Shown: piece after piece, positions 1,420-47,100 of the stretch
Position numbering within the stretch: the stretch's first letter is position 1
Layout of the letters: each line of letters starts with the position of its first letter
Assembly: GCF_001907695.1 (NCBI RefSeq)
Contig: NZ_KV880640.1
Coordinates: 124,001-188,000 of the forward strand
DNA: 64,000 nt
Direction: 5' to 3'
From: Thalassospira sp. TSL5-1
GTDB lineage: Bacteria; Pseudomonadota; Alphaproteobacteria; Rhodospirillales; Thalassospiraceae
Made by a program: the position numbers and the translations under genes
The notes under the pieces: generated by a model
Databases searched by the model: none
What the model saw: only the letters and a program-made list of their open reading frames with translations
Told to the model about the DNA's origin: nothing

Positions 1420-1451
1420 TCTTTCGAGAACCAGAAATGGGGTAACGGACG

Positions 1452-2369: not shown

Positions 2370-2372
2370 CAC

Positions 2373-3272: not shown

Positions 3273-3287
3273 GAAAGGAGAGAAACC

Positions 3288-5251: not shown

Positions 5252-5256
5252 CAGTG

Positions 5257-5295
5257 CCTGCCACCATCCGGGGTTCTAACCCAGATGGTGGCAGG
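5257..5295 (+). promoter_or_regulatory. Intercistronic stem-loop before the gamma-glutamyltransferase-like gene
   Basis: Bases 5257-5268 (CCTGCCACCATC) pair perfectly with 5284-5295. Inside, 5271-5274 (GGGT) can pair with 5279-5282 (ACCC). There is no T-run after it, so it does not look like a rho-independent terminator. Its 3' arm contains the AGG that starts the AGGTG ribosome binding site for the ATG at 5305, so folding could limit translation of the downstream gene or stabilise the upstream message. Confidence 0.6.
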
Positions 5296-5304
5296 TGATG
5301 TGGC

Positions 5305-6906: not shown

Positions 6907-6924
6907 AGAAAGGACGTATCTGTA

Positions 6925-8310
6925 ATGTCTAGCCGTGAACAGGTTATTGAGCGCATCACCCGGTATTTCGACGAGGGGGATTTTTTGCGCGAACTGACGG
7001 GACTTGTTGAAATTCCCAGCGAAAGCCAAAATCCCGAGCGGGCAGCAGAACTGCAACGCTATATCGACGAAAAAATGATTCCGATGTTGCGCGACATGGA
7101 ATTTACCACCCGTGTGATGGAAAATCCGTCCACCGGATTTGGCCCGTTTTTGTTTGCCGAACGCCATGAAGGCGACGGTTTGCCAACCATCCTGACCTAT
7201 GGGCATGGCGACGTTATCCTGGCTCAGGAAGGGGAATGGCGCGAAGGCCTGGAGCCTTTCAAGGTTGTTGTGGAAGATGACCGCATTTATGGCCGTGGCA
7301 CAGCCGATAACAAAGGCCAGCATTGCATTAATCTGGCCGCCTTGCGCGCGGTGATCGCCGAACGGGGCAAGCTTGGCTTTAATTGCAAGGTGATTATCGA
7401 AACCGGCGAGGAAACAGGTTCGCCGGGGCTGGCACAGTTGTTTGAGCAAAATCGCGACCTGTTTGCCGCCGATGTGCTGATTGCATCGGATGGCCCGCGC
7501 CTGAGTGCGGAACGCCCGACCCTGTTTATGGGGTCGCGCGGGGCGATCAACTTTTCATTGTCGCTGAATTATCGCGAAGGCGGGCACCATTCCGGCAATT
7601 GGGGCGGGTTGCTGAAGGATCCCGGTGTTGTGCTGGCTCATGCCCTGGCAACGATTACCGATGCAAGGGGGCAGATCCAGGTGCCTGAATGGCGGCCGGA
7701 TAGTTTGACCGCTCCGGTGCGCACGGCCCTGGAAGATTGCGCCATCACGCAAAGTGCTACTGGCCCGAAAATTGATGCGGACTGGGGGGAAGAAAGCCTC
7801 AGCCTGGCGGAAAAGGTTTATGGCTGGAACAGTTTTGCGATTTTGGCAATGAAAAGTGGCAACCCGGAAAAGCCGGTCAATGCGATTGCCCCGGCCGCGA
7901 TTGCGCATTGCCAGTTGCGTTATGTTGTTGGCACGGACCCGGACGATATTTTGCCCGCCTTGCGCCGTCATCTTGATAAGCACGGTTTTACCGATGTCGT
8001 GATCACCCCGGCCGAGAAGGGTTTTTTCCGGGCCACACGGCTTGATCCTGATCATGCCTGGGTGCTGCGCGCACGGGATTCCCTGATGCGGACAACAGGC
8101 AAATCGCCTGCCGTGCTGCCCAATCTTGGCGGGTCGCTGCCCAATGAAACATTCGCCTATATTCTGGGCATGCCAACCGTCTGGATACCGCATTCCTATG
8201 CCGGTTGTTCCCAGCATGCCCCCAATGAGCATGTCTTAAAAAGCCTAAGTCGTGAAGCCTTGCAAATCATGGCGGGTTTGTTTTGGGATATTGGCGAGGG
8301 TGTAGAATAA
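6925..8310 (+). CDS. M20 family metallopeptidase (dipeptidase/deacylase)
   Basis: Zinc-dependent amidohydrolase of the M20 (ArgE/DapE/CPG2) family, 461 residues. Expected metal-site elements appear in order: YGHGDVI (His), [11 protein letters not shown] (bridging Asp), [11 protein letters not shown] (catalytic Glu then metal Glu), LIASDGPR (Asp) and a C-terminal SQHAPNEH (His). The central dimerisation lid begins near [15 protein letters not shown]. It follows the gamma-glutamyltransferase-like gene by 18 bases with an AAAGGAC ribosome binding site, and it ends the transcription unit at the terminator 8327-8356. The likely role is hydrolysis of the peptide or N-acyl product made by the preceding enzyme; this is contextual inference. 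Confidence 0.92.
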
Positions 8311-9803: not shown

Positions 9804-9932
9804 TGTGTGTTTGCCTGTTTTCGTCAGGTCCGGTTTATTTTGTGGTTTTGGGGCATAAATTTTCGGATCATCAATATATTTTTTGTAGAATGCCTGATGA
9901 AACTGATCTTGCGGAATTAAAGGAGGCCAGGT

Positions 9933-10835
9933 TTGCCGGGTGACGTTCTTCAAAAATCTTTAAGCGACCTACAGGCAGAGCTGGCGAGGAAGGTTCTCCA
10001 TTTGGCCCAAAATGGTCACTGGGAACCGGGTGAACATGTATCGGAAATAAAGCTCGCCAACGAACTGGGGACATCGCGTTCACCAGTAAGAAGCGTTTTG
10101 CAGATACTGGAGCACTTTGGCGTATTTTCAAAAATTCCGAATGTGGGTTTTCGTTTTGCCGGCATCGCATCCGAACAATTTGATATCGACGCCTGGTTGC
10201 CGCGATCAGAGTTGGAGGATTTGTACGAAAAGATCATGATTGCGCGTGCCAGCGGGCATATTGGCGTTGAAGTTTCCGAAGCTGAACTGGCAGAACAATT
10301 TGGTAGATCACGCGGCGTTGTGCGGCGTGTCATGATGCGTTTTGCCAATTCAGGTTTGGCGGAACGCCGAACCGGGCATGGTTGGCGGTTTGCCGAAACC
10401 CTGGATCGTCACGAAGCCATAAACGAGAGCTATGCTTATCGGATTATTATTGAGTGTGGTGCCATTCGTGAGAGCAGCTTTGAGCCTGTGATGTCGCAAT
10501 TGCAAGACTTGCGCAGCGCACAAACTGCGATTTTGCAACGCCCATTGGCGGAAACTTCCGGTAGTGCCTGGTTCGAGGCGAACGCCAATTTCCATTCGAC
10601 AGTTGTATCGTGGGCTAATAACCGTTTTTTGAGCGAAAGTATTGCGCGACAGAATAATTTGCGCCGTATGACGGAGTTTGTTGAATTTACCCGTTTGACC
10701 GAAGAACGGATAAAAAAATCGGCCCGAGATCATCTGGCTATTTTAGATGCCCTTGAGAAGGGCGACAAAGAAGGTGCGGTTGACATCCTCTATCGCCATC
10801 TCAGCCGGACCTCAATTGATGAAAAGTCAGATTAG
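9933..10835 (+). CDS. GntR-type transcriptional regulator with two winged-helix domains
   Basis: Putative regulator of 300 residues. The first winged-helix domain covers about residues 12-72 (GEHVSEIKLANELGTSRSPV is the recognition region). A second one at about 88-150 (VSEAELAEQFGRSRGVVRRV) is followed by a C-terminal FCD-like helical ligand domain (NFHSTVV and DHLAILDALEKGD fit its metal-site pattern). Most FadR-subfamily proteins have a single DNA-binding domain, so the tandem is unusual. The start is TTG at 9933 preceded by AAAGGAGG. The gene converges with the minus-strand hydrolase operon and ends four bases from it, so it is the likely regulator of that operon; the operator would be nearly 10 kb away at its promoter. 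Confidence 0.85.
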   Translation: MPGDVLQKSLSDLQAELARKVLHLAQNGHWEPGEHVSEIKLANELGTSRSPVRSVLQILEHFGVFSKIPNVGFRFAGIASEQFDIDAWLPRSELEDLYEKIMIARASGHIGVEVSEAELAEQFGRSRGVVRRVMMRFANSGLAERRTGHGWRFAETLDRHEAINESYAYRIIIECGAIRESSFEPVMSQLQDLRSAQTAILQRPLAETSGSAWFEANANFHSTVVSWANNRFLSESIARQNNLRRMTEFVEFTRLTEERIKKSARDHLAILDALEKGDKEGAVDILYRHLSRTSIDEKSD

Positions 10836-10839
10836 TGTT

Positions 10840-11655
10840 TTAACCATTGAGAAACCGGGTAAAAAAATCTTTTACTGGCGGCTGGATTTTATCGCCTTCG
10901 TGGCCTGCATTCGGCACAATTTCCGTTTCGACACCAACGCCAATATCAGACAGATTTTGGGCGAGACTTTTAAGGCGTTCCATTCTGGTATGGCCAGAAT
11001 CATTTATGCCTTCCATCCAAAATGTTGATTTTTCACCAACCATTGTACCCTCGGGTGATGTATCATTCGCGCCAATCACAAGCTGCACGGCAATATTTTG
11101 CATAATTTCGGGCCGCAGGGGCGCGCCTAATTGGTGTTCCATATCTGCGGTGCCAACCCACCAGGGGGTATTGTTATCGGCAAGGGTAACGGTGCCTGGT
11201 GCGGCGATTGAAATGGCCGATAAACGCTCGGGGTGACGTAACAAAAAACGATGGGCAAATTGGCCCCCACCAGAAAACCCGTGCATCATAAACTTTTTGC
11301 TGTGAAGGCGAAAAATGCCGGATACTTCGTCGATCATGTCGAGAAGAACAGTGTCATAGGCAACATCGCCATAACGGAGATGCTTGTAATTGTTGAAATC
11401 GTCCAGGCTTTCGATCCCGCAGGGAAAGAGCGGTGCTAGTAATGCGCATTGTTGGGCTTCGGCGAAATCGACAAACTGATCGCGCAATTCATAGGCGTTG
11501 CGCATGCTGCCGTGAATCAGAACGACCAGCGGATATGTTTTCTCGCCTGCCGGATCATAGTTTTTCGGCACATAGGTGCAGTAGGAAAACCGCGGGTCGC
11601 TTTGCAACGAAAACATGGCACTGCGGTCAAGGCGGTAAAAATTCAGTTTTGCCAT
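10840..11655 (-). CDS. Alpha/beta hydrolase (esterase/depolymerase-like)
   Basis: Predicted cytoplasmic serine hydrolase of 271 residues. The nucleophile motif GFSGG places Ser at residue 128, an oxyanion-forming HGSMRN sits at about 48-53, and candidate Asp and His are in GANDTSPEG and NAGHEGDK near the C-terminus. The fold resembles feruloyl-esterase/PHB-depolymerase-type proteins, but there is no signal peptide. It is the last gene of a nine-gene operon and starts with a TGATG overlap with the amidohydrolase gene before it, indicating coupled translation. The substrate is unknown; it may hydrolyse an ester or amide in the compound imported by the operon's ABC transporter. Confidence 0.85.
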   Translation of the reverse strand: MAKLNFYRLDRSAMFSLQSDPRFSYCTYVPKNYDPAGEKTYPLVVLIHGSMRNAYELRDQFVDFAEAQQCALLAPLFPCGIESLDDFNNYKHLRYGDVAYDTVLLDMIDEVSGIFRLHSKKFMMHGFSGGGQFAHRFLLRHPERLSAISIAAPGTVTLADNNTPWWVGTADMEHQLGAPLRPEIMQNIAVQLVIGANDTSPEGTMVGEKSTFWMEGINDSGHTRMERLKSLAQNLSDIGVGVETEIVPNAGHEGDKIQPPVKDFFTRFLNG

Positions 11656-12551
11656 CAGTTTGCTTTGTCCTTTGCATAGGCCGCCAATTTTTCGCTCAGC
11701 CGGGTCATTGCGGCTTTGAATGCCGGGAAGTCAGCCGTTTTTTCGCGGGTGGTTTCGTCCATATACATGCGGCGATTGATTTCGAATTGCACCGCATGGC
11801 GGCCAATTGCCGGGTTGGCATAGGCCTCTGTCAGTTCGGCCCCCCGGAAGGGCTTGTTCATTTCAACGACAAAGCCTTCACCGCGCAGAATCTCGCATAA
11901 CAGGTTGGTAAATTCGGTTCCTGCGGAACGCCCATAAAGATCGCCAATGCAAATATCAGGGCGTGAAGCCCCTTTTCCGTCGGACGACATGGTATGGCCG
12001 ATATTGGTCATGGAATGACAGTTGACATGATAGACGGTGCGAAACTGGCCGTATGCGGCATCCAGTAACCGACGAAGCGCACTGTGATAAGGAAGCCAAT
12101 AGGTAAGGATGCGGTCGCGGGCCTGGGCAATGGTCAGCGGGCGGTCATACATGGCGGTGTCGTCCCATGCCTTGCGCCAAATAAGGCCCATGCCGCGTTT
12201 GGCGGTGTTGCTGGAACGTGTGGGATAGGGCCAGTCCCCGTCAACCATGCTGACATCCATGTCAGACAGGGACCTGTTCACATCAAGGAAGCTGCGCGGG
12301 AACAGGGCACGTAGCAGGGGGGCGCCATAATCAGGTGCGGCGGCAAATAAATCATCAACATGGGTGTCGGCTGAAACGCGCACCGCATCCACGTCGACCG
12401 CAGGATGAAAATCGGCAGGAAGGTCAAGACCGCTATGTGGGCTGTCAAAAACCAGTGGCACCAGCGGGGCTTTGGGCGCGTCAATGCTTAAAACACCGGG
12501 AATATCTTGCGGGACAGGCAGCAAGGGAAGGGTGAATTCGGGGGATGTCAT
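11655..12551 (-). CDS. N-formylglutamate amidohydrolase family protein
   Basis: Zinc hydrolase family best known for N-formyl-L-glutamate to glutamate plus formate (HutG-type). The 298 residues carry the family patterns: FDSPHSGLDLP near the start, ADTHVDDLF, the FLDVNRS motif, VNCHSM in the centre, and a late ICIGDLYG. In this place it is not next to histidine-utilisation genes but between an RraA-family gene and an alpha/beta hydrolase gene, so a different N-acyl amino acid may be the substrate. It overlaps the RraA-family gene by four bases (ATGA) and its stop overlaps the next start (TGATG). Confidence 0.88.
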   Translation of the reverse strand: MTSPEFTLPLLPVPQDIPGVLSIDAPKAPLVPLVFDSPHSGLDLPADFHPAVDVDAVRVSADTHVDDLFAAAPDYGAPLLRALFPRSFLDVNRSLSDMDVSMVDGDWPYPTRSSNTAKRGMGLIWRKAWDDTAMYDRPLTIAQARDRILTYWLPYHSALRRLLDAAYGQFRTVYHVNCHSMTNIGHTMSSDGKGASRPDICIGDLYGRSAGTEFTNLLCEILRGEGFVVEMNKPFRGAELTEAYANPAIGRHAVQFEINRRMYMDETTREKTADFPAFKAAMTRLSEKLAAYAKDKAN

Positions 12552-13249
12552 GATGTTTTTGTCTCTGTATCCGCGTTTGCACCGATGGCGTCATCGATCT
12601 GTTTAACAACGCCGGTAATGTCGCCCAGACGTTCGCCGTTTTGCAGGCGTTCCATGGTGCGGGCGACACGGCCCTGGCGGGCAATGCCGGCATCGGCTTC
12701 GTTTTCTGCTTCATCGGCAGGCAGAAAAACGACGCCGGATGCGTCGGCCAGAACAATATCCCCCGGTAATACAGGCGCATTGCCACATGCGATGGGACGA
12801 TTGAAGGTGCCACCCAAATTCAGTCTTCTTGTTGTTAAAGACGATGCCCCACGGCACCAAACCGGCAAGCCTTCATCGAGAATTTCGTTGATGTCGGTGA
12901 CGGGGCCGTCGATGACAACACCAACAGCACCTGCCTGTTTTGCCGCACGCGCCACCGCCCCGCCAAGGCAGGCGTGGCGGTCGTCGCCCAACCGGTCCAC
13001 GACCAGCATGTCGCCAGGGCGGATTTTGCTAACCGCGTAGTGCATCAGTGTAGAGCACATGGGCGGCAGGGCCAGGGTGACAGCGACACCGACCCGCACC
13101 GTTTGTTTGCTATCAAGCGCCTGAATGGTCCGATTGGCAAATCCGGTTAGTCGTACATGACCAAGGGTAGCTGTTTCAACCTGCTCCAGCTTTGCCCGCA
13201 AAGCCGGATCAAGCGGTGCCGGTAAAGGATCAATACGATAGCGGTTCAT
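12548..13249 (-). CDS. RraA family protein (HMG aldolase-like fold)
   Basis: Protein of 233 residues with the RraA/dimethylmenaquinone-methyltransferase-like fold, which includes class II aldolases for 4-hydroxy-4-methyl-2-oxoglutarate. Recognisable features are GDMLVVDRLGDDRHACLGG, the loop GVVIDGPVTDINEI, LPVWCRG, and the C-terminal GDIVLADASGVVFLP. In characterised aldolases the loop reads GxxRD, with Arg binding substrate and Asp holding the metal; here the Arg position is Thr (GPVTD). The Asp remains. The enzyme may therefore use a different substrate or not be an aldolase. It sits between creatininase-like and N-formylglutamate amidohydrolase-like genes with ATGA overlaps on both sides. 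Confidence 0.85.
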   Translation of the reverse strand: MNRYRIDPLPAPLDPALRAKLEQVETATLGHVRLTGFANRTIQALDSKQTVRVGVAVTLALPPMCSTLMHYAVSKIRPGDMLVVDRLGDDRHACLGGAVARAAKQAGAVGVVIDGPVTDINEILDEGLPVWCRGASSLTTRRLNLGGTFNRPIACGNAPVLPGDIVLADASGVVFLPADEAENEADAGIARQGRVARTMERLQNGERLGDITGVVKQIDDAIGANADTETKTS

Positions 13250-14058
13250 GATACCTCCGGTATAAACGGATTTTTGGGATCAGCACGCAGCAAACAACGG
13301 ATCAGGTCGGCTGTTATGTTCGTGATATGCTGAGCGAGTTTTTCGCCATGCTGCGATGATGCCAAAGCGGCTGAACCGGAAAGCAATCCGTTTTCATCAA
13401 CCTCTTTGGCGTTTAGCGGCAGATTAAGAGAAATGCCGTCAAACGTGACGCCAGACACACCGCGCACAGGGAAACCAAGGGCGGTTTTGCGGCGTGTTTT
13501 TGCTGTTCTAAGGTCGAGACGGCATTGTTCCGGGTATAAATGCAGCGCGACCGAACTTATGGGTTCGCCGCCATGTCCGCGCACGGTTGCATCACCAAAC
13601 AGTGTTGTTAACAGGCTGTCCGGGATGGTTTTCCAAATATCAAGTGATGGCACCATAATGCCTCGATCACGGCGAATATCGCGCACGACTTGCGAGATCA
13701 GCGAGGCGTTAGTGGTATGGCCGTTAAAAATCAGAAGACGATTAAGGTCGTGGTCAAGCAGGCTGTCGAGCATATCGCGCAGGACCGCCTTGAAGGTTTC
13801 GGGACGCAATTGCATGCCACCGGCAACATCGCGGAAAAAATCGGCATACCCAAAGGGGAGGCCCGGCGCAACCAGCGCGCAAGGGCCTGCATCCTGTGCT
13901 GCCATGACGGCAAGGCGTTCCGCCAATTGGTAATCCCCCATCGGGCAATGGGGGCCTTGTACTTCTTGTGACCCAAGTGGCACCAGAATGACCGTCGGTT
14001 CTTTCACCCGCGCTGCAAATTCAGTCGCCGTCATGTCTGCGATGCGGTGCTTTGTCAT
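13246..14058 (-). CDS. Creatininase family protein
   Basis: Putative metal-dependent amidohydrolase of 270 residues; family members open creatinine or related cyclic amides or act as formamide hydrolases. The N-terminal motif reads PLGSQEVQGPHCPMGDYQLAE. Compared with the usual GSxEQHGPHLPxxxD the metal-binding Glu and Asp are kept, but the His right after the Glu is Gln. Later family elements FNGHTTNASLI and RGHGGEPISS are present. This ligand change may alter metal occupancy or specificity. Both ends overlap neighbours by four bases, so it is translated as part of the hydrolase block. The substrate is not determined. Confidence 0.85.
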   Translation of the reverse strand: MTKHRIADMTATEFAARVKEPTVILVPLGSQEVQGPHCPMGDYQLAERLAVMAAQDAGPCALVAPGLPFGYADFFRDVAGGMQLRPETFKAVLRDMLDSLLDHDLNRLLIFNGHTTNASLISQVVRDIRRDRGIMVPSLDIWKTIPDSLLTTLFGDATVRGHGGEPISSVALHLYPEQCRLDLRTAKTRRKTALGFPVRGVSGVTFDGISLNLPLNAKEVDENGLLSGSAALASSQHGEKLAQHITNITADLIRCLLRADPKNPFIPEVS

Positions 14059-15593
14059 GATGCGGTTTCTTTTTGACGGGCGTTTTGGGTCAGGTGCCCT
14101 TTTATTTCGGGCAGCGACAGAATGGACGAATTCACATTCACCTGCCGGAACATCCGCAATTTACCATTTCGCAGTTTGCAGCCTACCGTATCGCGAAATG
14201 CGGTTTCGATGAAGGCCCAGTCAAATGTTAGAATGTGCCAACCTTCGTCATCCATTTCTGACCATGCAGCCCATGCTGCTACGGCAAAGCCTTCATCGGG
14301 TTCATAGGCATGGTGCAGGCGTGCGCCGCTCATGGTTGTGACACTTTCAACCCTGTGTCCCAGTCCTGCCTGAATACGGTGTGCCCCGCGATGGTCTTTC
14401 AGAACAAAGACAATATCGCGACCGGATTGTTCCAGACGAAGGGCAGTGATGCCCTGATCGTTGGGTTCGGCTGTATAGGTTCCAGCCCAGTTTTGTGGTG
14501 CATGCGACCAGCTTTCGCCAGGTGGCGGGCAAAGTTCGAGCATATTGATCCTCCCTGGCAGATCGGGCTTGTCCCAGGTGCCCAGGGCAGGACGCAGTAC
14601 GTCGTGGATAAGGCCGTGAAAGCGGCGGTCATTGTCGTCCATGCCCGCAGTGAAGGCGATGACCGCCCGTTCATTGGGCAGTACAATACAGGCCTGGCCG
14701 AACAGGCCCGTCGCGGCGTAGCTGTCATGGGGCCCACGCCACCATTGATAGCCATATCCTTCGCGCCGTTCCGGGCTTGCGTCACCAACACTTTCATCGG
14801 GACCAAGATAATGCTCGCCGGTTAACACCCCAAGCGAGACATCACGCAGTTGCATGCCGGTTGCGGCTTTGGTCCAGTTTTCAGGCAGAACCTGATCCCC
14901 GTTCCATTTGCCGTGTTGCAAATGCAAGATCCCCAGTTTTAGCAAATCAGACGTCAGGCAGGTCAGGCCGTTGCCACCACTATTAACCCCCTCAGGGCTT
15001 AGGTCCCAGCGAATATCAGGTGACATTTGCAAGGGCGTAAAGACGCGATCCGTAAGGTAGTCATGAACGGTTCGCCCTAAAACACGCTGAACAATGGCCG
15101 AGAGTACATAGCTGCATGCGCTGTCATAAACAAAAATTTCGCCAGGAGCATAGACAATGGGTTGTTTGAGGAAATCTTCGACCCAGCTTGTTTTGAGTTT
15201 TCGCCATGATCCACCGGAAATGCCACAGGCGTGACCGCTGGTCATGGTAAGCACATGACGAATTTGCATGGCCTCGATGCCACTGGCGGCCGACTTTTTA
15301 AATTCCGGGAAAAAATCGATGACCCGGTCTGTCAGGCTTAGTTTGCCATCCTCTATGGCCAGTCCTACAGCCATAGAGGTGAAACTTTTGGTGACCGAAT
15401 GCATCATATGCAAGCGGTCCGGCCCGTAAGGTGCCCAATAGGCCTCGGTGATCAATGCGCCATCATGCCAGACCAGCAGGCTGTGCATTTCAATGCCGGC
15501 GCGTTCAATTTCGTCAAGCACGGTTAAAATGATGGCAGGGTCCGTTTTGTGACTTTCAGGCGTTGCGCGGATCAGTCCGTCTTTATGGCTCAT
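14055..15593 (-). CDS. Serine hydrolase (beta-lactamase/class C esterase family)
   Basis: Predicted serine hydrolase with a penicillin-binding-protein-like fold, about 512 residues from the chosen start. The nucleophile motif SxxK occurs in HSVTKSFTSMAVG, and the Tyr motif YxS in FVYDSACSYVLSAIV. A C-terminal extension of about 150 residues resembles the lipocalin-like tail seen in some family members. No signal peptide is visible. The frame is open back to 15635, but the ATG at 15593 is preferred because it forms an ATGA overlap with the ATPase gene ahead of it. Its position straight after the transporter suggests it acts first on the imported compound, as an esterase, amidase or D-aminopeptidase-like enzyme. 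Confidence 0.85.
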   Translation of the reverse strand: MSHKDGLIRATPESHKTDPAIILTVLDEIERAGIEMHSLLVWHDGALITEAYWAPYGPDRLHMMHSVTKSFTSMAVGLAIEDGKLSLTDRVIDFFPEFKKSAASGIEAMQIRHVLTMTSGHACGISGGSWRKLKTSWVEDFLKQPIVYAPGEIFVYDSACSYVLSAIVQRVLGRTVHDYLTDRVFTPLQMSPDIRWDLSPEGVNSGGNGLTCLTSDLLKLGILHLQHGKWNGDQVLPENWTKAATGMQLRDVSLGVLTGEHYLGPDESVGDASPERREGYGYQWWRGPHDSYAATGLFGQACIVLPNERAVIAFTAGMDDNDRRFHGLIHDVLRPALGTWDKPDLPGRINMLELCPPPGESWSHAPQNWAGTYTAEPNDQGITALRLEQSGRDIVFVLKDHRGAHRIQAGLGHRVESVTTMSGARLHHAYEPDEGFAVAAWAAWSEMDDEGWHILTFDWAFIETAFRDTVGCKLRNGKLRMFRQVNVNSSILSLPEIKGHLTQNARQKETAS

Positions 15594-17260
15594 CCCACAG
15601 CCTCCGTTGTCAGATCGGGTTCGCCAAAGCGCCAACTTAAAACAACGCCGGTTTCCGTGCGGTTCAGCTTGGGAATTGCCGACAGCAGGGCGCGGGTATA
15701 GTCGCTTTTGGGGGTATCAAATATCTGGTTGCGTGCCCCTTCTTCGGCAATTTTGCCATCGCGCATAACAATTACTCGGTCCGCCAGTTGTTCCACCACA
15801 CCCAGGTCGTGGCTTATAAAAAGGCAGGAAAAGCCGTAGCGATGTTGCAGGTTACTTAAAAGCTCCAACACCTGCGCACGCACGGTGACATCAAGGGCCG
15901 AGACGGCTTCATCCGCGATTACGAAATCAGGCCGGCCGATGATGGCCCGTGCAATGGCGACGCGCTGGCGTTGCCCACCCGATAGTTCATGGGGCAAGCG
16001 GTCAAGATGGGCCGTTTTTAACCCGACTTCTTCAATTGCAGTGCAAATGCGCTCCTCCCGTTGGGATCGGGGAAGATTTTTTTCGTGATACAGGGCTTCA
16101 GCCAGGGTGCGCCGAATGGTAAAGCGCGGATCAAGCGATCCAAACGGATCCTGAAAGATCATTTGGCAATTTCGGCGATAATCCATCCATGTGGCATTAC
16201 CTTTTTTAACCACCCGCCCGCGAAATAATACTTCGCCCGCACTGGTTTTGATTTGATGGGCAATGGCCTTTCCAAGGGTAGTTTTGCCAGAGCCTGAAGC
16301 ACCAACAATGGCAACAACTTCGCCGCGCCGCACAGTAAGGTTAATGCCGTGAAGCGCCTTTTTCTTGTCGACCTTACCAAACAAACCCGACCGGGATTTA
16401 TATTCGACTGCCAGATCACGGGTTTCGAGGATCGGTTGGTCGGTATCATTGAAAAGACGAACGGGTCCGCGTTCTGGCATGGAACGCAGCAGGTTGCGGG
16501 TATATTCGTGTTGTGGTGTCGCTAAAATATCGGCTGTTTGGCCGGACTCAACAATCTCTCCCTGGCGCATAACAAGCAGGCGTTCGCAATAATGTGCCAC
16601 CATCGGTAAATCATGGCTGATCAGAATTAATGCTGTGCCTTCTTCTTTGGTCAGTTCCAGCATGAGTTTCAAAACGCTGCGCTGGACAAGGGCATCGAGT
16701 GCGGTTGTGGGTTCATCCGCGATCAGCAGTGCAGGCTTTAGCAACATGGCCGATGCCAGCATAATCCGTTGGCGCATACCGCCGGAAAATTCGTGGGGAT
16801 AATCGTCCAACCGGTCTTGCGGGGCAGGAATGCCCACCCGTTCCATAATTTCAAGAATACGGGTACGGCGTTCTTTTGCGTTTAGGTCGGTATGTTCTTG
16901 CAGCGGTTCATTAAGCTGTCGGCCAATTGTCATTGACGGGTTCAGGGACGTCATGGGTTCTTGAAAAACCATACCGATCTCGGCCCCGCGCAGGCGGCGC
17001 AGGTCCTTGGCTTTCATGTCCAGCACCGAACGCCCCTGAAACAGGATGTCTCCGCCATAGGGAACCACAACACCGGGCTGAAGCCCAAAAAGCGAGCGGC
17101 CAAGCATGGTTTTGCCCGATCCGGATTCCCCGACAAGGCCTAAAACCTCGCCAGGTTTCAGATCGAAGCTGGCGGCCTTTACAATGCGGTTATCAGTGGG
17201 GCTGACCAGCCCAAGGTCGAGCGCGCGAACACTCAACAAGATTTCGGTGTCAGTCATCAC
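15590..17260 (-). CDS. Fused double ABC ATPase of a peptide-type importer (DppD-DppF fusion)
   Basis: Single 556-residue protein with two complete nucleotide-binding domains. The N-terminal half has Walker A GESGSGKT, Q-loop [10 protein letters not shown], signature FSGGMRQRI and Walker [11 protein letters not shown]. The C-terminal half has Walker A GASGSGKTT, FQDPFGSLDP, LSGGQRQRV and an altered but common Walker B IADEAVSALD. It replaces the separate DppD and DppF proteins found in the first cluster. Gene overlaps on both sides (ATGA) tie it to the DppC-like permease ahead and the serine hydrolase behind. Confidence 0.93.
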   Translation of the reverse strand: MMTDTEILLSVRALDLGLVSPTDNRIVKAASFDLKPGEVLGLVGESGSGKTMLGRSLFGLQPGVVVPYGGDILFQGRSVLDMKAKDLRRLRGAEIGMVFQEPMTSLNPSMTIGRQLNEPLQEHTDLNAKERRTRILEIMERVGIPAPQDRLDDYPHEFSGGMRQRIMLASAMLLKPALLIADEPTTALDALVQRSVLKLMLELTKEEGTALILISHDLPMVAHYCERLLVMRQGEIVESGQTADILATPQHEYTRNLLRSMPERGPVRLFNDTDQPILETRDLAVEYKSRSGLFGKVDKKKALHGINLTVRRGEVVAIVGASGSGKTTLGKAIAHQIKTSAGEVLFRGRVVKKGNATWMDYRRNCQMIFQDPFGSLDPRFTIRRTLAEALYHEKNLPRSQREERICTAIEEVGLKTAHLDRLPHELSGGQRQRVAIARAIIGRPDFVIADEAVSALDVTVRAQVLELLSNLQHRYGFSCLFISHDLGVVEQLADRVIVMRDGKIAEEGARNQIFDTPKSDYTRALLSAIPKLNRTETGVVLSWRFGEPDLTTEAVG

Positions 17261-18072
17261 AGGCCCCTCATCCGTGGGTCAAAACGGTCGCGGACATAGT
17301 CGCCAAACAGGTTGATGCCCAGCAAAGTCATCGAAATACACAGCCCCGGGAAGATCCCCAGCCATACGGCCTGTTCCATATAAGGCCGTGCGCCAGCCAG
17401 CATATTGCCCCATGTCGGTGCGGGTGGTGGCACGCCAAGCCCCAGAAAACTCAGCGCACTTTCGGTCAGCAAGACCGATCCAAACATTGATGTCGCGATC
17501 ACGATCACCGGTGCCAGGCAGTTGGGAATAATATGGACAAGCAAGGTATACCCGGCGGGGTGCCCCATCAGACGCGATGCTTCGATATAATCCTGTTCGC
17601 GCAACGACATGACCGAGCCCCGAACAACCCGTGTGACCGTCGGTAAATAGGCCAAGCCCAGGGCGATGATAACGCCGGAAATGTTTGTGCCCATGATGGA
17701 CAGCAAAGCAAGGGCGAGCAGCATGGAAGGAAAAGCAAGAAGCGTGTCGGTGAACAGCATAACGGTGCGGTCCACCCAGCCCCGGCAATATCCCGACAGG
17801 GCGCCAAGGATCAGCCCGAAAAAGACCGAGCATAAAACCGTCAACGTCGAAATCGAAACGCTGGTACCCGCCGCCGCCATCAGGCGCGATAAAACATCTC
17901 GGCCATATTCATCGGTGCCCAGCCAGTGGCCAGGCCCTGGAGGCAGAAGTTTGTCTTGTAAATGAATGGCAAGCGGGTTTTCCGGTGTCCAGAGCAACCC
18001 TGACAAAGCCACAACAAGGAAGAAGGCAACCAGGCTGCTTCCCAGGATTTGGTTTGTTCTACGCAAGCTCAT
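17257..18072 (-). CDS. ABC transporter permease, DppC/OppC type
   Basis: Inner-membrane permease of the second peptide-type importer, about 271 residues. It shows an N-terminal helix (ILGSSLVAFFLVVALSGLL), the conserved HWLGTDEYGRDVLSRLMAAA, the docking loop YIEASRLMGHPAGYTL and the end segment LSFLGLGVPPPAPTWGNML. The ATG at 18072 (MSLRRTNQ) is chosen over an upstream in-frame start at 18108 because it overlaps the DppB-like stop codon by four bases (ATGA). The next gene, the fused ATPase, also overlaps by four bases. Confidence 0.92.
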   Translation of the reverse strand: MSLRRTNQILGSSLVAFFLVVALSGLLWTPENPLAIHLQDKLLPPGPGHWLGTDEYGRDVLSRLMAAAGTSVSISTLTVLCSVFFGLILGALSGYCRGWVDRTVMLFTDTLLAFPSMLLALALLSIMGTNISGVIIALGLAYLPTVTRVVRGSVMSLREQDYIEASRLMGHPAGYTLLVHIIPNCLAPVIVIATSMFGSVLLTESALSFLGLGVPPPAPTWGNMLAGARPYMEQAVWLGIFPGLCISMTLLGINLFGDYVRDRFDPRMRGL

Positions 18073-19013
18073 TGGGCTTTTATCCTTGGATCGAACAGGG
18101 GGTAGCACAGATCAATAATCAGATTGACAACCACATAGGTCACCGCAACAAACAGCAGGCAGCCCTGCAAGACCGGGTAGTCGCGACCGAAAATAGATTC
18201 AACAATCAGGCGCCCAAGGCCCGGGATTGTAAAAACGGTTTCGATAACAGCCACACCGCCTAGCAAATTACCCAGAATAAGACCCAGAAGGGTCCAGGTC
18301 GGGCCAAACGCATTGCGGGCAACGTGCCGGGTCAGGATAGCGGCGTCTGAAAGGCCTTTGGCGCGTGCATGAGTAATGTAATCAAGGCGTAAAACATCCA
18401 GGGTTGATGCGCGTGCCATACGGACCAGAATACCGGTTTCATGCAGCACCAGGGACGCAACCGGCATGATCAGATAGATCAGCCCGCTCCAAAAATTATG
18501 GGCGATGGAGACATATCCGATCACCGGGAGCCAACCGAGTTTAAGACCAAAAAACAACAGCAACATTAAACCACCCCAAAAGGTGGGGATCGACATCAGC
18601 ATTGTTGCCGTAATCACAACGCCCAGGTCAAAGCCGCTGCTTTGGCGCCAGGCAGCAACCATACCCAAAGGGACGGCGATAATTGCCGAGATTGCCACGG
18701 CAATCAGCACAAGTTGTGCGGAAATGAAGAAGCGATGCAGCACAAGTTGCATGACCGGTTCCCCGGTGGTGATGGAATGCCCCAAGTCGCCATGTAACAG
18801 GGCCTGAAACCACAGAAACATCTGGGTGGGAATGGATTGATCCAGCCCGAGATGACGGCGCATGGTTTCGTAAACCTGTTGGTCTGCGTTGTCGCCCAGC
18901 ATGAGTGTGACCGGATCGCCCGGAATCAGTCGGATCAAGGCGAAAACGGTAATTGAAACCAAAATGAGCGTCGGTATGGCTGTAAGCAAACGTGCAACCA
19001 TGAATCTGAGCAT
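18069..19013 (-). CDS. ABC transporter permease, DppB/OppB type
   Basis: Inner-membrane permease of 314 residues, partner of the DppC-like protein encoded next. The N-terminus MLRFMVARLLTAIPTLILVS, the GDPVTLMLG loop, the docking region YITHARAKGLSDAAILTRHV and the C-terminal LCYPLFDPRIKAQ are all typical of DppB. A 105-base gap with a long stem-loop (19042-19083) separates it from the binding-protein gene upstream, so membrane components are probably made at a lower level than the binding protein. Confidence 0.93.
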   Translation of the reverse strand: MLRFMVARLLTAIPTLILVSITVFALIRLIPGDPVTLMLGDNADQQVYETMRRHLGLDQSIPTQMFLWFQALLHGDLGHSITTGEPVMQLVLHRFFISAQLVLIAVAISAIIAVPLGMVAAWRQSSGFDLGVVITATMLMSIPTFWGGLMLLLFFGLKLGWLPVIGYVSIAHNFWSGLIYLIMPVASLVLHETGILVRMARASTLDVLRLDYITHARAKGLSDAAILTRHVARNAFGPTWTLLGLILGNLLGGVAVIETVFTIPGLGRLIVESIFGRDYPVLQGCLLFVAVTYVVVNLIIDLCYPLFDPRIKAQ

Positions 19014-19041
19014 TGTGCGCCCCTGTTTGCGTGTTTTGCGT

Positions 19042-19083
19042 TTTACGCGGGGGCTGGTTTCGAGAAAACCAGTACCGCGTAAA
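19042..19083 (-). promoter_or_regulatory. Bipartite stem-loop between binding-protein and permease genes
   Basis: Outer arms 19042-19050 (TTTACGCGG on +) and 19075-19083 pair over 9 bases; inner arms 19054-19060 (CTGGTTT) and 19066-19072 pair over 7 bases around a five-base loop. No T-run follows on the minus strand, so it is more likely an mRNA-stabilising or partial-attenuation element that raises binding-protein over permease expression. Confidence 0.65.
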
Positions 19084-19118
19084 GCTGTTGTTTTTTCTTG
19101 TGAGGTTTGTATTGCGGA

Positions 19119-20669
19119 TTATTTTTTAACCCCGACACCCCATAGGCGTGTGAAGCCGTTCCAGGTGCGATAGCCCTCGATATTGGCAGCGGTAACAGAA
19201 ACATCGATGCCGTTCGCCAGCATGAGCATCGGCACATCATGCAAGAACAGTTCGTGCAACTGATCAAACAGGGCCTGACGTTCGGGTCCATCGGGGGTTT
19301 GCAGTACGTCGTTTAGTAGGGCGATGGCTTTTGGATCATCCCAAATTGCACTGCCACGATCTTTTTTGGATGCTGTTACGGCGCTATAGGCCAGGGCCGG
19401 ATCGGCCCGGTTGGAATAATTAAAGGCGGAAAGCTGATATTTACCATTGCGAAAACGGTCAAGCTGGGTGGCCCATTCGAGAACTTCAATCCGGGCGTTG
19501 ATGCCGTTCATCTGCAACATTGCCTGCGAGATGATGGCAACATTTTCGTTGATGGGATTGCGCCGGTTGGTTTGAATGACGATTTCCTGACCCTTATATC
19601 CTGCCGCTTTCAAAAGGTCCGGGACATCTTGCGGGGCATAATCGATCCGTTTGTCCTGTATCGCATCATGATAAATGGAACGCGTTGCCACAAGCGACGC
19701 ATTGGGCGTGCCAAGGCCATTTGTTGCCGCATCCACGATTTGCGAAATATCAAGCGATTTGGCAATTGCCAGGCGCATTTCACGCGAAGACAGAACCGGG
19801 TCAGTGGTTTGCATCAACAGTGTGATCATTCCGCCATGCGGTTCGGCCACGACCTTAAAGGCTGGGTCGTCCATAAGGTTCTTGGCTTCGCTGGGCGGCA
19901 AATAGGGCAAAATATCAAGATCACCACTGCGCAGGGCCGCAACGGCGGTGGATTTATCGGGTGTTACGATCAAGTTGACATCATCAACCAAAACTTCTTT
20001 ACGCCCGGCATAGCCATCAACTTTCTCTCCGACCGGGTTATAGTCTTTGAATTTGGTCAGATGAATCCGTTCGCCACGTGTCCATTTGTCAAAAACAAAG
20101 GGGCCGGTGCCGATGGGGTGATCCCATGTGCCGTCTTTTGAGAAACTGTCGGGATGCATGATTGCCATACCGCCGCATTGCGACTGCGCGGTATATTTTA
20201 AAAACATCGCGTCGGGTTGGCTCAGGGAAATGACGACTGTTTGAGTATCCGGTGCATCAATTTTTTCAATCGCCGCCCCGCGCGAACCATCAAAAAATGA
20301 GGCGCAGTTGAAGGCTGGTGTGGTACGCAGCGTATCCAGGCTTTGTTTGACAATGGCGGCCGTAAGAGGTGCGCCATTATGAAAAACAACATCATCACGC
20401 AGGTGAAATGTGTAAGTGGTGCCGTTGTCCGAAACGTCCCAGCTTTTGGCCAGCATTGGTTTGATGTCGCCCCCCTCACCAAATGCAACCAACCCTTCAC
20501 CGACATTCATCATAACAGAATCTGATAGGGAATCACGGTTCACACCTGGTTCAGAACTGCGTAAATCGGCTGAAATCTGAACGTTGAGTGTTTGGGCATT
20601 AAGCGAGGACGCCCCGAACAGGACGGCTCCCGCAAGTGTCGCTTGGAACCAAAACGTAGTTTTTTTCAT
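19119..20669 (-). CDS. Peptide-type ABC transporter substrate-binding protein (family 5)
   Basis: Periplasmic binding protein of the second importer, about 516 residues. The ATG at 20669 gives a clear Sec signal peptide (MKKTTFWFQATLAGAVLFGA, cleavage near SLNAQ-T); the frame extends further upstream but has no reason to start there. Family 5 patterns include KPMLAKSWDVSDNGTTYTF, FHLRDDVVFHNGAPL and HPIGTGPFVFDKW. It is the first gene of the operon and lies behind the only long divergent intergenic region, which carries a perfect 9-base inverted repeat at 20697-20726. Ligand unknown; downstream hydrolases suggest a peptide-, amide- or lactam-like compound. Confidence 0.93.
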   Translation of the reverse strand: MKKTTFWFQATLAGAVLFGASSLNAQTLNVQISADLRSSEPGVNRDSLSDSVMMNVGEGLVAFGEGGDIKPMLAKSWDVSDNGTTYTFHLRDDVVFHNGAPLTAAIVKQSLDTLRTTPAFNCASFFDGSRGAAIEKIDAPDTQTVVISLSQPDAMFLKYTAQSQCGGMAIMHPDSFSKDGTWDHPIGTGPFVFDKWTRGERIHLTKFKDYNPVGEKVDGYAGRKEVLVDDVNLIVTPDKSTAVAALRSGDLDILPYLPPSEAKNLMDDPAFKVVAEPHGGMITLLMQTTDPVLSSREMRLAIAKSLDISQIVDAATNGLGTPNASLVATRSIYHDAIQDKRIDYAPQDVPDLLKAAGYKGQEIVIQTNRRNPINENVAIISQAMLQMNGINARIEVLEWATQLDRFRNGKYQLSAFNYSNRADPALAYSAVTASKKDRGSAIWDDPKAIALLNDVLQTPDGPERQALFDQLHELFLHDVPMLMLANGIDVSVTAANIEGYRTWNGFTRLWGVGVKK

Positions 20670-20696
20670 GAGGCCTCTCCGCTGATATGTTCTGAT

Positions 20697-20726
20697 TATT
20701 GTATTTAGATTGACCATAATACAATA
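20697..20726 (-). promoter_or_regulatory. Inverted repeat, candidate operator of the hydrolase/importer operon
   Basis: TATTGTATT (20697-20705) and AATACAATA (20718-20726) form perfect 9-base arms around 12 bases, centred about 43 bases upstream of the binding-protein start. Its AT-rich ATTGTAT half-sites resemble GntR-family operators, so the tandem-domain regulator encoded at 9933-10835 is the obvious candidate ligand; no binding is shown by sequence alone. Confidence 0.55.
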
Positions 20727-21049
20727 TTAAAACATCATACAGGTCAAACGAAAAATCAGATCGCACGTAATTTTGCCGATATGCGAGGTTAAAATTGCGA
20801 CACAAGACATGCACCTGCCTGGATAGTGGCAGGAAGATTGCGTGCAGACCGCGAGCAGGTGTGGTTTGTTTGATAATTTTTTTTGGATTTTTCATAGACT
20901 TTCCACTGCAGCTTTGTTGTGCCTTAGGCTGGGACAAAGAAACTGTTGTCCTGCGTAAACGTACTACAAAACTGTCGCAAATCTTCAGTTCGCGGATGTT
21001 CGCAGTTGATAAAGTCAATCATCATAAAAATTTCGGGGACTGGCTTCTC

Positions 21050-22303
21050 ATGACCCATTTTTCTGCGTTATCGCTTCTGAAAAATGCGCTGACCGGGCAT
21101 AAAAACTGGGAACCGCAATGGCCCGATAGCCAGCCCAAGGCGGAATACGATGTGATCATCGTTGGTGCCGGCGGGCATGGCCTGGGGGCGGCCTATTATC
21201 TGGCCAAGGAACACGGCATTACCAATGTTGCCGTGATCGACAAGGGCTGGCTGGGCGGCGGTAATACCGGGCGGAATACCACCATCATCCGGTCCAATTA
21301 CCTGTATGATGAAAGCGCGCGTTTATACGACCATGCCGTGGATTTGTGGGGCGGTCTTAGCCAGGAGCTGAACTACAACGTCATGTATTCCAATCGTGGC
21401 GTTTTGATGCTGGCGCATAATGTGCATGATGTTCAAAGTTTCAAACGCCACATCCATGCCAACCGCTTGAACGGGGTGGACAATACCTGGTTAACCCCAC
21501 AGGAGGCCAAGGAATATTGTCCGCCGCTGGATATTTCGGCATCCGCCCGTTTCCCGGTGATGGGGGCTGCCCTGCAACGCCGGGCCGGGACGGCCCGCCA
21601 TGATGCGGTGGCCTGGGGCTATGCCCGTGGGGCATCGATGCGCGGGGTGGATATTATTCAAAACTGCCCGGTCACGGCCATTCGCCGTGGCCCGGATGGC
21701 CGGGTGACGGGTGTTGAAACCGCGCGCGGTTTTATTGGCGCAAAAAAGGTCGCGGTTTCGGCCGCCGGTCATACCTCGGTCGTGATGGACAGCGCCGGGG
21801 TGCGCATGCCGCTGGAAAGCTATCCGTTGCAGGCCCTGGTATCCGAGCCGGTCAAACCGATTTTCCCCTGTGTTGTCATGTCCAACACGGTTCACGCCTA
21901 TATCAGCCAGTCGGACAAGGGCGAGTTGGTAATTGGCTCTGGCACGGACCAGTATACCAGCTATTCGCAACGAGGCGGTTTGCCGCTGATTGAGCATACG
22001 GTGGCGGCGATTTGCGAAATTTTCCCGATTTTCAACCGCATGCGCATGTTGCGCAAATGGGGCGGGATTGTTGATGTGACGCCGGACCGTTCGGCCATTC
22101 TGGGTAAAACCCCGGTGCCGGGCCTGTATGTGAATTGCGGCTGGGGTACGGGCGGTTTCAAGGCAACGCCGGGTGCGGCCCATATGCTGGCCTGGACGGT
22201 GGCAAAGGACGAACCCCATGCCATCAATGCGCCTTTCACCCTTGAGCGTTTCGCCACCGGCCGTCTGATCGACGAAGCCGCAGCTGCCGCCGTTGCCCAT
22301 TAA
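21050..22303 (+). CDS. soxB: Sarcosine oxidase subunit beta
   Basis: Catalytic flavoprotein subunit of heterotetrameric sarcosine oxidase, which oxidises sarcosine to glycine with tetrahydrofolate as one-carbon acceptor. The 417 residues have the dinucleotide-binding motif [18 protein letters not shown], the [16 protein letters not shown] substrate-site segment and the C-terminal [17 protein letters not shown] typical of SoxB. The frame is open back to 20795, but the ATG at 21050 ([16 protein letters not shown]) gives exactly the usual family length and N-terminus. It heads the complete soxBDAG set and supplies the last step of the betaine pathway encoded at 26234-33444. Confidence 0.96.
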
Positions 22304-22314
22304 GGAGAGCGCAG

Positions 22315-22620
22315 ATGTTGCTGATCCACTGCCCCTATTGCCAGCAGACCCTGCCGGAGCTTGAATTTACCTATGCCGGGCAGGCGCATGTTGCGCGGCC
22401 CGATGTGGCCAACAAACAGATAAGCGATGAAGAATGGCGCGATTTCCTGTTTATCCGCAGCAATGTCAAAGGGCCGCATTATGAACGCTGGCGTCATGTA
22501 CATGGCTGCGGGCTGTTTTTCAATGCGGTGCGTGACACCGTAAGCGACCGTTTCCTGATTACCTATAAAGTTGGCGAAACCCGCCCTGAATTATCCGATC
22601 TGCTGGAGAAATCGGAATGA
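22315..22620 (+). CDS. soxD: Sarcosine oxidase subunit delta
   Basis: Small zinc-binding subunit of heterotetrameric sarcosine oxidase, 101 residues. Likely zinc ligands are the Cys pair in IHCPYCQQTLPE and the His/Cys of HVHGCGLFFN; the core RPDVANKQISDEEWRDFLFIR is characteristic of the family. The ribosome binding site AAGGAGAG lies just upstream, 12 bases after soxB. Its stop overlaps the soxA start by four bases (ATGA). Confidence 0.95.
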   Translation: MLLIHCPYCQQTLPELEFTYAGQAHVARPDVANKQISDEEWRDFLFIRSNVKGPHYERWRHVHGCGLFFNAVRDTVSDRFLITYKVGETRPELSDLLEKSE

Positions 22621-25610: not shown

Positions 25611-25625
25611 CGCGGAGACGACAGG

Positions 25626-26174
25626 ATGACAGTATTGACACATGCCTTCACGCCGGGTCCGCTTGTAACAGGCAAGGCCGTTTCGGTTGGTTTGATGGGC
25701 CCGATGGGCCGGTTTTCGCTACGTTTGCGTCAGGCAGGGCTGGCGGCCATGTCGGTGGCGATTGGGTTGGAAATGCCAACGCGCATTGGTGCGCGTGCGC
25801 AAAATGCAAGTCGCGAAATCATTTGTCTTGGCCCGGATGAATGGTGTTTGCAGGCAAGAGCGGTCGAAGCCACAGATATTATGGATGCTTGTGCCACGAT
25901 TTATGCGACCACACCTCATAGTTTAACCGATATTTCCGCCCGTGAAATAACGGTTTTGATCGAGGGACCAGCGGCGAGCGACCTTCTGACAATCGGTTGC
26001 CCGCGCGACCTGGATAAAATTGCGCCGGGAGAGGGATGCCGAACTGTTTTTGAAGGTATTTCAATTGTGTTGTGGCGGGACGGCGAACATCGTTTTCGGC
26101 TGGATGTGTGGCGGTCTTTTGCCCCGCACTTAATCGGTTTACTGGAAATAGGGGCGCAGGAATTTAACCCGTGA
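25626..26174 (+). CDS. soxG: Sarcosine oxidase subunit gamma
   Basis: Small subunit of the sarcosine oxidase heterotetramer, 182 residues, related to the folate-binding half of GcvT. Recognised by position after soxA and by segments such as CLGPDEWCLQA, PHSLTDISAREITVLIEGP and the C-terminal WRDGEHRFRLDVWRSFAPHL. The frame opens with ATG at 25626, 15 bases after soxA and preceded by GGAGACGACAGG. A terminator-like stem-loop follows before the convergent dimethylglycine dehydrogenase-like gene. Confidence 0.92.
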   Translation: MTVLTHAFTPGPLVTGKAVSVGLMGPMGRFSLRLRQAGLAAMSVAIGLEMPTRIGARAQNASREIICLGPDEWCLQARAVEATDIMDACATIYATTPHSLTDISAREITVLIEGPAASDLLTIGCPRDLDKIAPGEGCRTVFEGISIVLWRDGEHRFRLDVWRSFAPHLIGLLEIGAQEFNP

Positions 26175-44785: not shown

Positions 44786-44865
44786 TTTTCCTCGTTCGGC
44801 TTCAATTTTGTCCCTCGGCAGGATTACACCACACAGACAGGGTAGACAACGAAATATTTTTTATG

Positions 44866-44882
44866 TACATGTCATGTATACA
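44866..44882. promoter_or_regulatory. Overlapping palindromes, candidate GntR operator
   Basis: TACATG-T-CATGTA (44866-44878) overlaps a perfect TGTATACA (44875-44882) between the divergent regulator and nitrilase-family genes. GntR/FCD operators often contain TGTATACA-type cores, so this is a good operator candidate. Confidence 0.5.
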
Positions 44883-44913
44883 CGGTGAATAAAGTTTGTC
44901 GAAAGGACCTAGA

Positions 44914-45735: not shown

Positions 45736-45822
45736 TCCCCACCGGTGCATCCTCATCGGATGTCCGGTTACGTTTTTCAAACCCTCTCACGTCACCACGA
45801 TACGATAGATAAAGGTCCTGTA

Positions 45823-47072: not shown

Positions 47073-47100
47073 AAAAGCCAATGCTTCAGGTGAGGTTAAA

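Follow-up and report, generated by a model that had tools for sequence, protein, structure and literature searches.

The subject of this analysis is a ten-gene importer and hydrolase cassette in a stretch of 64,000 nucleotides from Thalassospira sp. TSL5-1 (contig NZ_KV880640.1, positions 124,001 to 188,000), the whole of which is hereafter called the window. According to the list of open reading frames (ORFs) and Pfam, nine of the genes form an operon on the minus strand (10840-20669) that encodes an Opp/Dpp-type ABC importer and five enzymes. The tenth gene encodes a convergent GntR/FCD regulator on the plus strand, the end of which is separated from the operon by a gap of 4 bases. The features, in order of position, are as follows:

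9933-10835, plus strand: GntR/FCD regulator with two N-terminal winged helices (PF00392 in two stretches and PF07729 FCD)
10840-11655, minus strand: alpha/beta hydrolase (abH), PahZ1/LpqC-like (best phmmer match 9o7u, E 2e-10)
11655-12551, minus strand: N-formylglutamate amidohydrolase-family protein (NFG; PF05013, 216 bits over a cut-off of 28.9, E 9.4e-64)
12548-13249, minus strand: RraA-family protein (PF03737, E 6.1e-29)
13246-14058, minus strand: non-canonical creatininase-family protein (Crt; PF02633, E 8.8e-44)
14055-15593, minus strand: serine hydrolase (SerH) of class C beta-lactamase/family VIII esterase fold (PF00144, E 7e-36)
15590-17260, minus strand: fused double ATPase of the Opp/Dpp-type importer (two PF00005 and two PF08352 stretches)
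17257-18072, minus strand: importer permease C (PermC; PF00528)
18069-19013, minus strand: importer permease B (PermB; PF00528 and PF19300)
19119-20669, minus strand: periplasmic substrate-binding protein (SBP), SBP_bac_5 (PF00496, E 1.3e-77)
20697-20726, minus strand: operator-like inverted repeat with 9-bp arms and a 12-bp spacer, upstream of the binding-protein gene

Eight of the nine operon genes are linked by seven junctions, comprising six 4-base overlaps and one 1-base overlap. Start codons were assigned within longer frames in three cases: (i) the SBP gene begins at the ATG at 20669 in an ORF open to 20717, (ii) the PermC frame is open to 18108 and its internal ATG at 18072 produces the 4-base overlap with PermB, a start annotated in the same way in three relatives, and (iii) the SerH frame is open to 15635, with the start at 15593 producing an ATGA overlap. 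Pfam agreed with the family calls of the operon proteins, with the exception of abH, which scored 19.8 bits against PF00756 (cut-off 22). The GC content of the unit (0.533) matches that of its surroundings (0.537), and base composition therefore gives no sign of acquisition. An initial annotation, made from the letters of the window, had described the nine-gene minus-strand unit, its overlaps, the importer with a fused double ATPase and the five enzyme families, all of which were borne out by the ORFs and Pfam; the convergent regulator and the perfect 9-12-9 inverted repeat had not been mentioned.

The conservation of the unit was assessed in a sample of 41 loci, 35 from a scan of genome contigs with Crt and six chosen annotated plasmid stretches; since the loci were picked by similarity to Crt, the sample is silent on operons that lack this gene. 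All ten genes, with order and orientation kept, were found in 13 of the 41 loci (L004-L009, L011, L012, L018, L027, L039, L040 and L041, three of them plasmid records), an arrangement that we call type A, and a recurrence of this extent is more than chance. The initial annotation had proposed looking for the five enzyme families beside similar transporters elsewhere, and in these loci they do stand beside the importer in the same order, so that synteny is not absent from relatives. The hosts are Thalassospira, a Nitratireductor metagenome-assembled genome, Ectorhizobium, Agrobacterium, Allorhizobium, Rhizobium, Salipiger, Shinella and Qingshengfaniella, and thus include Rhizobiaceae and Rhodobacterales; the Shinella hosts are reportedly known from a paper on acesulfame, to which we draw no link. 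In every one of the 13 type A loci the regulator gene is placed on the downstream side of abH and points the other way, which is why it was counted as part of the unit. A sucrase/ferredoxin-like gene is placed between abH and the regulator in six of the Rhizobiaceae loci (L007, L008, L009, L011, L039 and L040).

A second arrangement, type B, accounted for 25 loci, some of which run into contig borders (e.g., L033). The importer and Crt were present in all 25, RraA in 24 and NFG in 20; SerH and abH were present in none, and a gamma-glutamyltransferase-type (GGT) gene was found in 21. Crt was in other company in the three remaining loci (L035, L043 and L044). Type A formed one side of a branch in each of four quick trees, with support values from the Shimodaira-Hasegawa-like approximate likelihood ratio test (SH-aLRT, no bootstrap) of 96 for PermB, 99 for RraA, 97 for Crt and 99 for NFG. 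Few genomes have the type A layout. Among 385 genomes drawn from the class, SerH was found at E 1e-60 or better in two, namely that of the window and a genome designated G042, which is not type A, and an RraA gene at type A identity was found in two of 29 Thalassospira genomes.

The second Thalassospira genome, G019, which is probably the same strain as type A locus L004, allowed the borders of the unit to be drawn. Positions 9914-20756 of the window align with G019 at 87.7% identity over 10,864 bp, and this homology spans from the ribosome-binding site of the regulator to just past the operator-like repeat. Elsewhere on the 39.6-kb G019 contig, the sole further nucleotide match to the window was 123 bp long; at the protein level, other ABC genes gave weak matches. 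The flanks are unlike: in the window the cassette adjoins sarcosine oxidase and MscS genes, and in G019 its neighbours encode another importer, DAO-type oxidases and a protein with an octopine-dehydrogenase domain. We infer from these comparisons that the ten-gene set was assembled once and later moved as a block. Note that the octopine-dehydrogenase-domain protein and two DAO-type oxidases (L183 1429-6803; L182 18640-19770) give the G019 cassette an opine-like neighbourhood; together with the sarcosine oxidase genes of the window these neighbours are suggestive, in two cases only.

The catalytic residues of the five enzymes were compared with those of characterized relatives. In all 15 rows SerH has the SxxK motif and the Tyr after it, and it matches PF00144, as expected of a class C beta-lactamase-fold serine hydrolase; no signal peptide was seen by eye. 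Foldseek matched its model to 8dc1, 8rlj and 4gb7, and as the model is low in confidence (mean predicted local distance difference test score, pLDDT, of only 67), its beta-rich C-terminal part was left unnamed. The Ser-Asp-His triad of abH is kept in 14 of 14 sequences and the protein is, by sequence, a member of the PahZ1/LpqC-like group, its nearest solved relative being poly(aspartic acid) hydrolase-1. NFG falls within the PF05013 FGase superfamily, with 26 polar positions invariant over 35 rows that include 2q7s, the sole solved relative found (E 2.7e-58), the distant L035 row being left out. An assignment as the N-formylglutamate deformylase HutG was rejected, since NFG scored 99.7 bits against TIGR02017 and thereby missed the cut-off of 278.75.

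Crt and the RraA-family protein depart from their families at defined positions. Relative to the creatininase of P. putida (1j2t), E34, D45, H120, W154 and H178 are kept in 42 of 42 Crt sequences, and in the same 42 sequences H36 is replaced by Q and E122 by T, S, A or G. We take E34, H36, D45, H120, E122 and H178 of creatininase to be its metal and catalytic residues. Crt was accordingly rejected as a creatininase (EC 3.5.2.10), given the loss of H36 and E122 throughout and a score of 75.4 bits against the 235 required by TIGR04448. In the RraA-family protein, Asp-124 is kept in 39 of 39 sequences and R195 in 38 of 39; Arg-123 is Thr and Glu-199 is lost in all 39. Passages of a study of HMG/CHA aldolase (PMC5065237) describe Arg-123 as essential and Glu-199 as a metal ligand, the activity of R123A being below detection and the kcat of R123K being reduced 181-fold. 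A role as an HMG/CHA-type pyruvate aldolase was rejected, since of Arg-123, Asp-124 and Glu-199 only Asp-124 is kept. The changes in Crt and RraA are fixed across types A and B, and hence mark subfamilies rather than decay in one genome.

These residues bear on the order of reactions that the initial annotation had read from the order of the genes, namely import, ester or amide cleavage, ring or amide opening, a C-C or other lyase step and N-acyl removal. The proposed steps are supported only in part. Both serine hydrolases keep their catalytic residues. Ring opening and a C-C lyase step do not follow, because Crt is without two creatininase residues and the RraA-family protein without the aldolase arginine. 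Nor is there support for equating the gene order with the reaction order, for in the 25 type B loci the trio of Crt, RraA and NFG is arranged differently and mostly has another front-end hydrolase. A second cluster in the genome of the window (L045; C2:1171000-1190999) encodes a Thr-type RraA protein (44% identical), a hydrolase resembling PahZ (about 30%, without a Pfam match), a carbon-nitrogen hydrolase, another alpha/beta hydrolase and an HpcH aldolase. Also in this cluster are an ABC importer of a different type, a GntR/FCD protein and a LuxR protein that carries an autoinducer-binding domain.

The distribution of abH led to a wider family of operons. A match at E 1e-30 or better was present in 33 of the 297 genomes in one family and in 29 of the 298 in another, with 44 and 35 matches, respectively. 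Of the 40 stretches fetched around these 79 matches, L142 and L143 proved to be the type A loci L009 and L006 again and were left out, giving n = 38. Partners were counted within 8 kb of abH at an identity of at least 40% for C45 and at least 30% for others. On this basis the partner hydrolase was C45 in 25 loci, GGT without C45 in six and neither in seven (27, six and five when the distance and identity limits were lifted). Neighbours within the same limits were permease B (33 loci), the GntR regulator (20), an omega-aminotransferase-like gene (14) and a TonB receptor (one); Crt, RraA or NFG occurred within 8 kb of abH in none of the 38. The same partner arrangements are repeated in seven annotated plasmid stretches, with partners that include C45, GGT and an amidase. 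An abH-C45-importer operon with a short GntR gene is carried by one of these, a large conjugative plasmid of Klebsiella pneumoniae (L078), far outside the alphaproteobacteria.

The importer of type A is nearer to that of the abH set than to that of type B, as evidenced by mean identities of 56 vs 37% for PermB, 55 vs 34% for PermC, 56 vs 42% for the ATPase and 40 vs 26% for SBP (means over 30 to 41 rows for the abH set). The abH set is itself mixed, in that the GGT-type loci carry a more distant importer with permeases 34-37% identical. In G042 (L056, L061; C1:475000-510500), the importer, abH and SerH occur together, and a GntR relative directly precedes the importer genes; the Crt-RraA-NFG trio was not found in the three neighbouring G042 stretches searched. 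Type A thus looks like a composite: a chassis of the abH family (importer, abH and regulator) would have gained Crt, RraA and NFG, the trio seen in type B, and SerH would fill the position of partner hydrolase.

The importer has the components of the Opp/Dpp/Nik type, with an SBP_bac_5 binding protein, two BPD_transp_1 permeases and two ATPase domains with oligo_HPY. The best NCBIfam models were YejF for the fused ATPase (below cut-off, followed by the PRK11308 dipeptide ATPase subfamily, over cut-off), Opp2B and Opp2C for PermB and PermC (both below cut-off) and NikA for SBP (below cut-off). The best solved relative of SBP is AgaA (6hlx, E 2.9e-45), the ligand of which is presumably the opine agropinic acid, and the second is AapF (7kz8, E 1.2e-33). 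The partners in the sister operons belong to amide-cleaving families (C45, GGT and amidase), and one such operon encodes an aminotransferase that scores over the cut-off of the AptA omega-aminotransferase model. As far as homology can guide, the kinship with AgaA and AapF, the relative of abH and the sister-operon amidases and aminotransferase point to an amide-linked, amino-acid-derived small molecule as the substrate; little weight should be given to any more exact guess.

The regulator has the winged helix and FCD domain of the GntR/FCD family plus an extra N-terminal winged helix. Its AlphaFold2 model has two winged helix-turn-helix (wHTH) domains followed by FCD (mean pLDDT 83.7), and both halves have matches in the PDB; the Foldseek search with this model returned ordinary GntR-type structures. 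GntR matches were found in 28 of 46 related loci, and 27 of these 28 cover the tandem-wHTH length; the tandem form is thus common in this family of operons. We know of no tandem-winged-helix FCD architecture described before. The repeat upstream of the binding-protein gene, TATTGTATT-N12-AATACAATA, is a perfect 9-12-9. Arm matches were 9/9 in the window, L005 and L041 and 8 in L004, values reached by 0, 0, 0 and 5 of 300 shuffles, respectively. The perfect pattern has one match in the genome of the window and one in G019, both at the cassette operon. The regulator is probably a repressor of the cassette. Two broader roles for the repeat were considered and rejected: an operator common to all type A loci, since the shuffle test leaves four of 14 upstream regions clear, and a wider regulon in the genome of the window, since the eight further two-mismatch sites were fewer than those of a control pattern (20 per strand).

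The reading that we favour, with somewhat better than even confidence, is that of a self-contained, horizontally moving, repressor-controlled catabolic cassette, by which an amide- or ester-linked small molecule would be taken up and split by hydrolysis. The regulator would repress the operon from the inverted repeat, and the substrate or an intermediate would release this repression. The importer would take in the amide- or ester-linked compound, possibly an N-substituted or beta/gamma-linked amino acid derivative of an opine-, pyroglutamyl- or isoaspartyl-like kind, which SerH and abH would cleave inside the cell; in related operons a C45 or GGT-type hydrolase occupies the place of SerH. One of the released halves would then be processed by Crt, RraA and NFG, with NFG stripping the last N-acyl or formyl group to leave an ordinary amino acid. 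Every protein family involved is known, as are regulated importers with catabolic enzymes as a kind. A search of openly licensed PMC papers found no description of the present set of genes, in which two enzyme subfamilies are altered, or of a pathway using it, in agreement with the initial annotation, which knew of none. Its further proposal of an undescribed catabolic system held for the unit, which is co-inherited with conserved synteny and has a type A branch in four trees; the chemistry that it deduced from family names was not supported.

Several observations weigh against this reading. The catabolic theme is drawn from family names and linkage, and the importer, abH and SerH of G042 adjoin a siderophore receptor. 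A relative of SerH on a Variovorax plasmid, 38.5% identical, stands in an unrelated setting. The approximately unbiased (AU) test of type A and the abH set as one PermB clade gave p 0.066 with long branches in play, and for this reason the composite origin is a step that we infer. With regard to control, the repeat is clear in only four of the 14 upstream regions (the window, L004, L005 and L041). The ten others are no better than shuffles, except L006 (9 of 300), where the repeat is located elsewhere, and spacers of 8 and 6 outscore that of 12 over all 14 regions. A consensus scan of the operon strand passed no promoter.

Among the other explanations, ordinary scavenging of di- and tripeptides, or of gamma-glutamyl or isoaspartyl peptides from decaying biomass, by generalist peptidases and amidases in a loose operon of convenience would agree with the Opp/Dpp/Nik class of the importer and with the broad amidohydrolases (C45, GGT and amidase) of the related operons. 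The second nearest solved binding protein, AapF, can be added, as passages of PMC4981722 present the aap transporter, which is linked to PipR, as one for peptides; a PipR-type protein was not found in the cassette. However, one specific compound is the better fit for a dedicated regulator, for an operator with only one perfect copy in the genome and for ten genes that stay together as a set in distant taxa, and the fixed altered residues of Crt and RraA likewise speak against scavenging, which we regard as unlikely. Less probable again is a metallophore or siderophore system, in which a siderophore, xenosiderophore or fragments of one would be imported and hydrolysed by SerH and abH with release of metal and carbon. 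This alternative is kept because of the G042 neighbourhood, where the importer, abH (41% identical) and SerH (46%, opposite strand) adjoin a TonB-dependent siderophore receptor (TIGR01783, 260.4 over a cut-off of 223.5) with a PepSY_TM protein and an AraC regulator alongside, and NikA as the top model for SBP, below cut-off, would suit it. Yet a TonB-receptor match lay within 8 kb in one of the 38 other abH loci and none is annotated beside L039-L041; the genome of the window has 10 receptor-barrel (PF00593) matches, none inside the window, so that no linked receptor was found. The regulator is, moreover, of the GntR/FCD family, and even G042 has a GntR relative (34% over 295 residues) upstream of the importer.

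The folds of SerH, C45 and GGT all include beta-lactam acylases or hydrolases, and the interchange of the beta-lactamase-fold SerH with C45 and GGT in otherwise similar operons could be taken as a sign that beta-lactam-like natural products are broken down. That argument is made at the level of folds. SerH scored 18-27 bits against beta-lactamase cut-offs of 415-900, and its best structural matches are a penicillin-binding protein with esterase activity (8dc1), PIB-1 (8rlj) and amide hydrolases such as 4gb7, which makes this explanation very improbable. The sarcosine oxidase genes directly adjoining the cassette (soxB, soxA and soxG, 20795-26174; soxB and soxA over their cut-offs and soxG slightly under) might suggest that creatinine or methylhydantoin is broken down to feed this oxidase, given a creatininase-family gene about 7 kb from genes that pass the beta and alpha subunit models. 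We give this route almost no credence and reject it on the score of Crt (75.4 of 235 bits), on the absence of H36 and E122 from all 42 sequences and on the sox genes, which do not accompany the block in G019. SoxB and SoxA of the window match nothing on the G019 contig at E 1e-20, where DAO-type oxidases with weak soxB similarity are found, and the annotated L039-L041 stretches have no sarcosine oxidase.

A more far-reaching version of the favoured reading can be offered tentatively, as a possibility somewhat short of probable. The cassette would be a mobile composite for an unrecognised class of natural amides (opine-like or beta/gamma-linked amino acid conjugates), in which reshaped creatininase-fold and RraA-fold enzymes would catalyse reactions that neither family has so far been assigned, with a tandem-winged-helix FCD repressor in control. 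It would belong to a modular operon family with the same abH and importer and with interchangeable SerH, C45 or GGT. If the proposal is true, a single ligand screen with one binding protein would give access to a pathway of plant-associated and marine bacteria. It would also assign functions to one subfamily each of creatininase and RraA, both of which have misleading automatic names, and would explain the wider importer-operon family in which unrelated amide-hydrolase folds swap.

Outside the cassette, the window contains a possible accessory pair:

44896-45735, plus strand: carbon-nitrogen hydrolase (PF00795), deaminated-glutathione-amidase-like, below cut-off
45745-46560, plus strand: HpcH/HpaI aldolase (PF03328)

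The aldolase shares 63% identity with the HpcH protein encoded next to the type A operon on plasmid pAspH13-3a. Type A is flanked by relatives of both genes in three of 13 loci (L027, L040 and L041) and by a relative of HpcH alone in two others (L005 and L039), and neither was found in eight. The pair may be tied to the cassette, by neighbourhood only. It stands in a row (44108-51893) of GntR, carbon-nitrogen hydrolase, HpcH aldolase, TRAP transporter and ethanolamine ammonia-lyase genes. At 55-8310, the window holds another Opp-type importer, followed by a GGT-type gene and an M20 peptidase; this GGT is 33% identical to that of type B.

Among the known systems closest to the cassette are operons recorded in genomes. 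Type B, found in Rhizobium, Neorhizobium, Agrobacterium, Inquilinus and Rhodobacterales, shares with it an importer and the same subfamilies of Crt, RraA and NFG, with identical altered residues in Crt and RraA. It differs in the order of its genes (PermB-PermC-SBP-Crt-ATP-RraA-GGT-NFG), in a GGT-type gene that replaces SerH and abH, in an importer only 26-42% identical and in its regulator, usually a LysR gene upstream (the cluster was present in 22 loci, with one member checked by Pfam), in contrast to the GntR of the cassette. The abH-C45 and abH-GGT importer operons of Rhizobiaceae, Pseudoroseomonas, Tistrella, Phyllobacterium, Thalassospira marina and the Klebsiella plasmid are annotated in records, and no description of them was found. 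They share the abH family (about 35-52% identity) and usually an Opp-type importer, and the C45-type loci have mostly the nearer importer as well (permeases about 49-67%), often with a tandem-wHTH regulator as in the cassette. Their partner hydrolase is instead C45 or GGT, in part accompanied by an omega-aminotransferase and a dehydrogenase, and Crt, RraA and NFG are present in 0/38. The likeness to agropinic acid import (AgaA, 6hlx) is confined to homology of the binding protein. The Aga enzymes show no sign of kinship, and, among the Agrobacterium matches listed, six of seven for Crt and five of five for SerH lie on plasmids of 386-602 kb (Ti plasmids not covered). Creatininase of P. putida (1j2t) shares with Crt its fold family and five residues, and differs at H36, at E122 and with respect to the equivalog cut-off. 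HMG/CHA aldolase (3noj) and RraA share the fold, D124 and R195 with the cassette protein, which has Thr at the position of Arg-123 and is without Glu-199.

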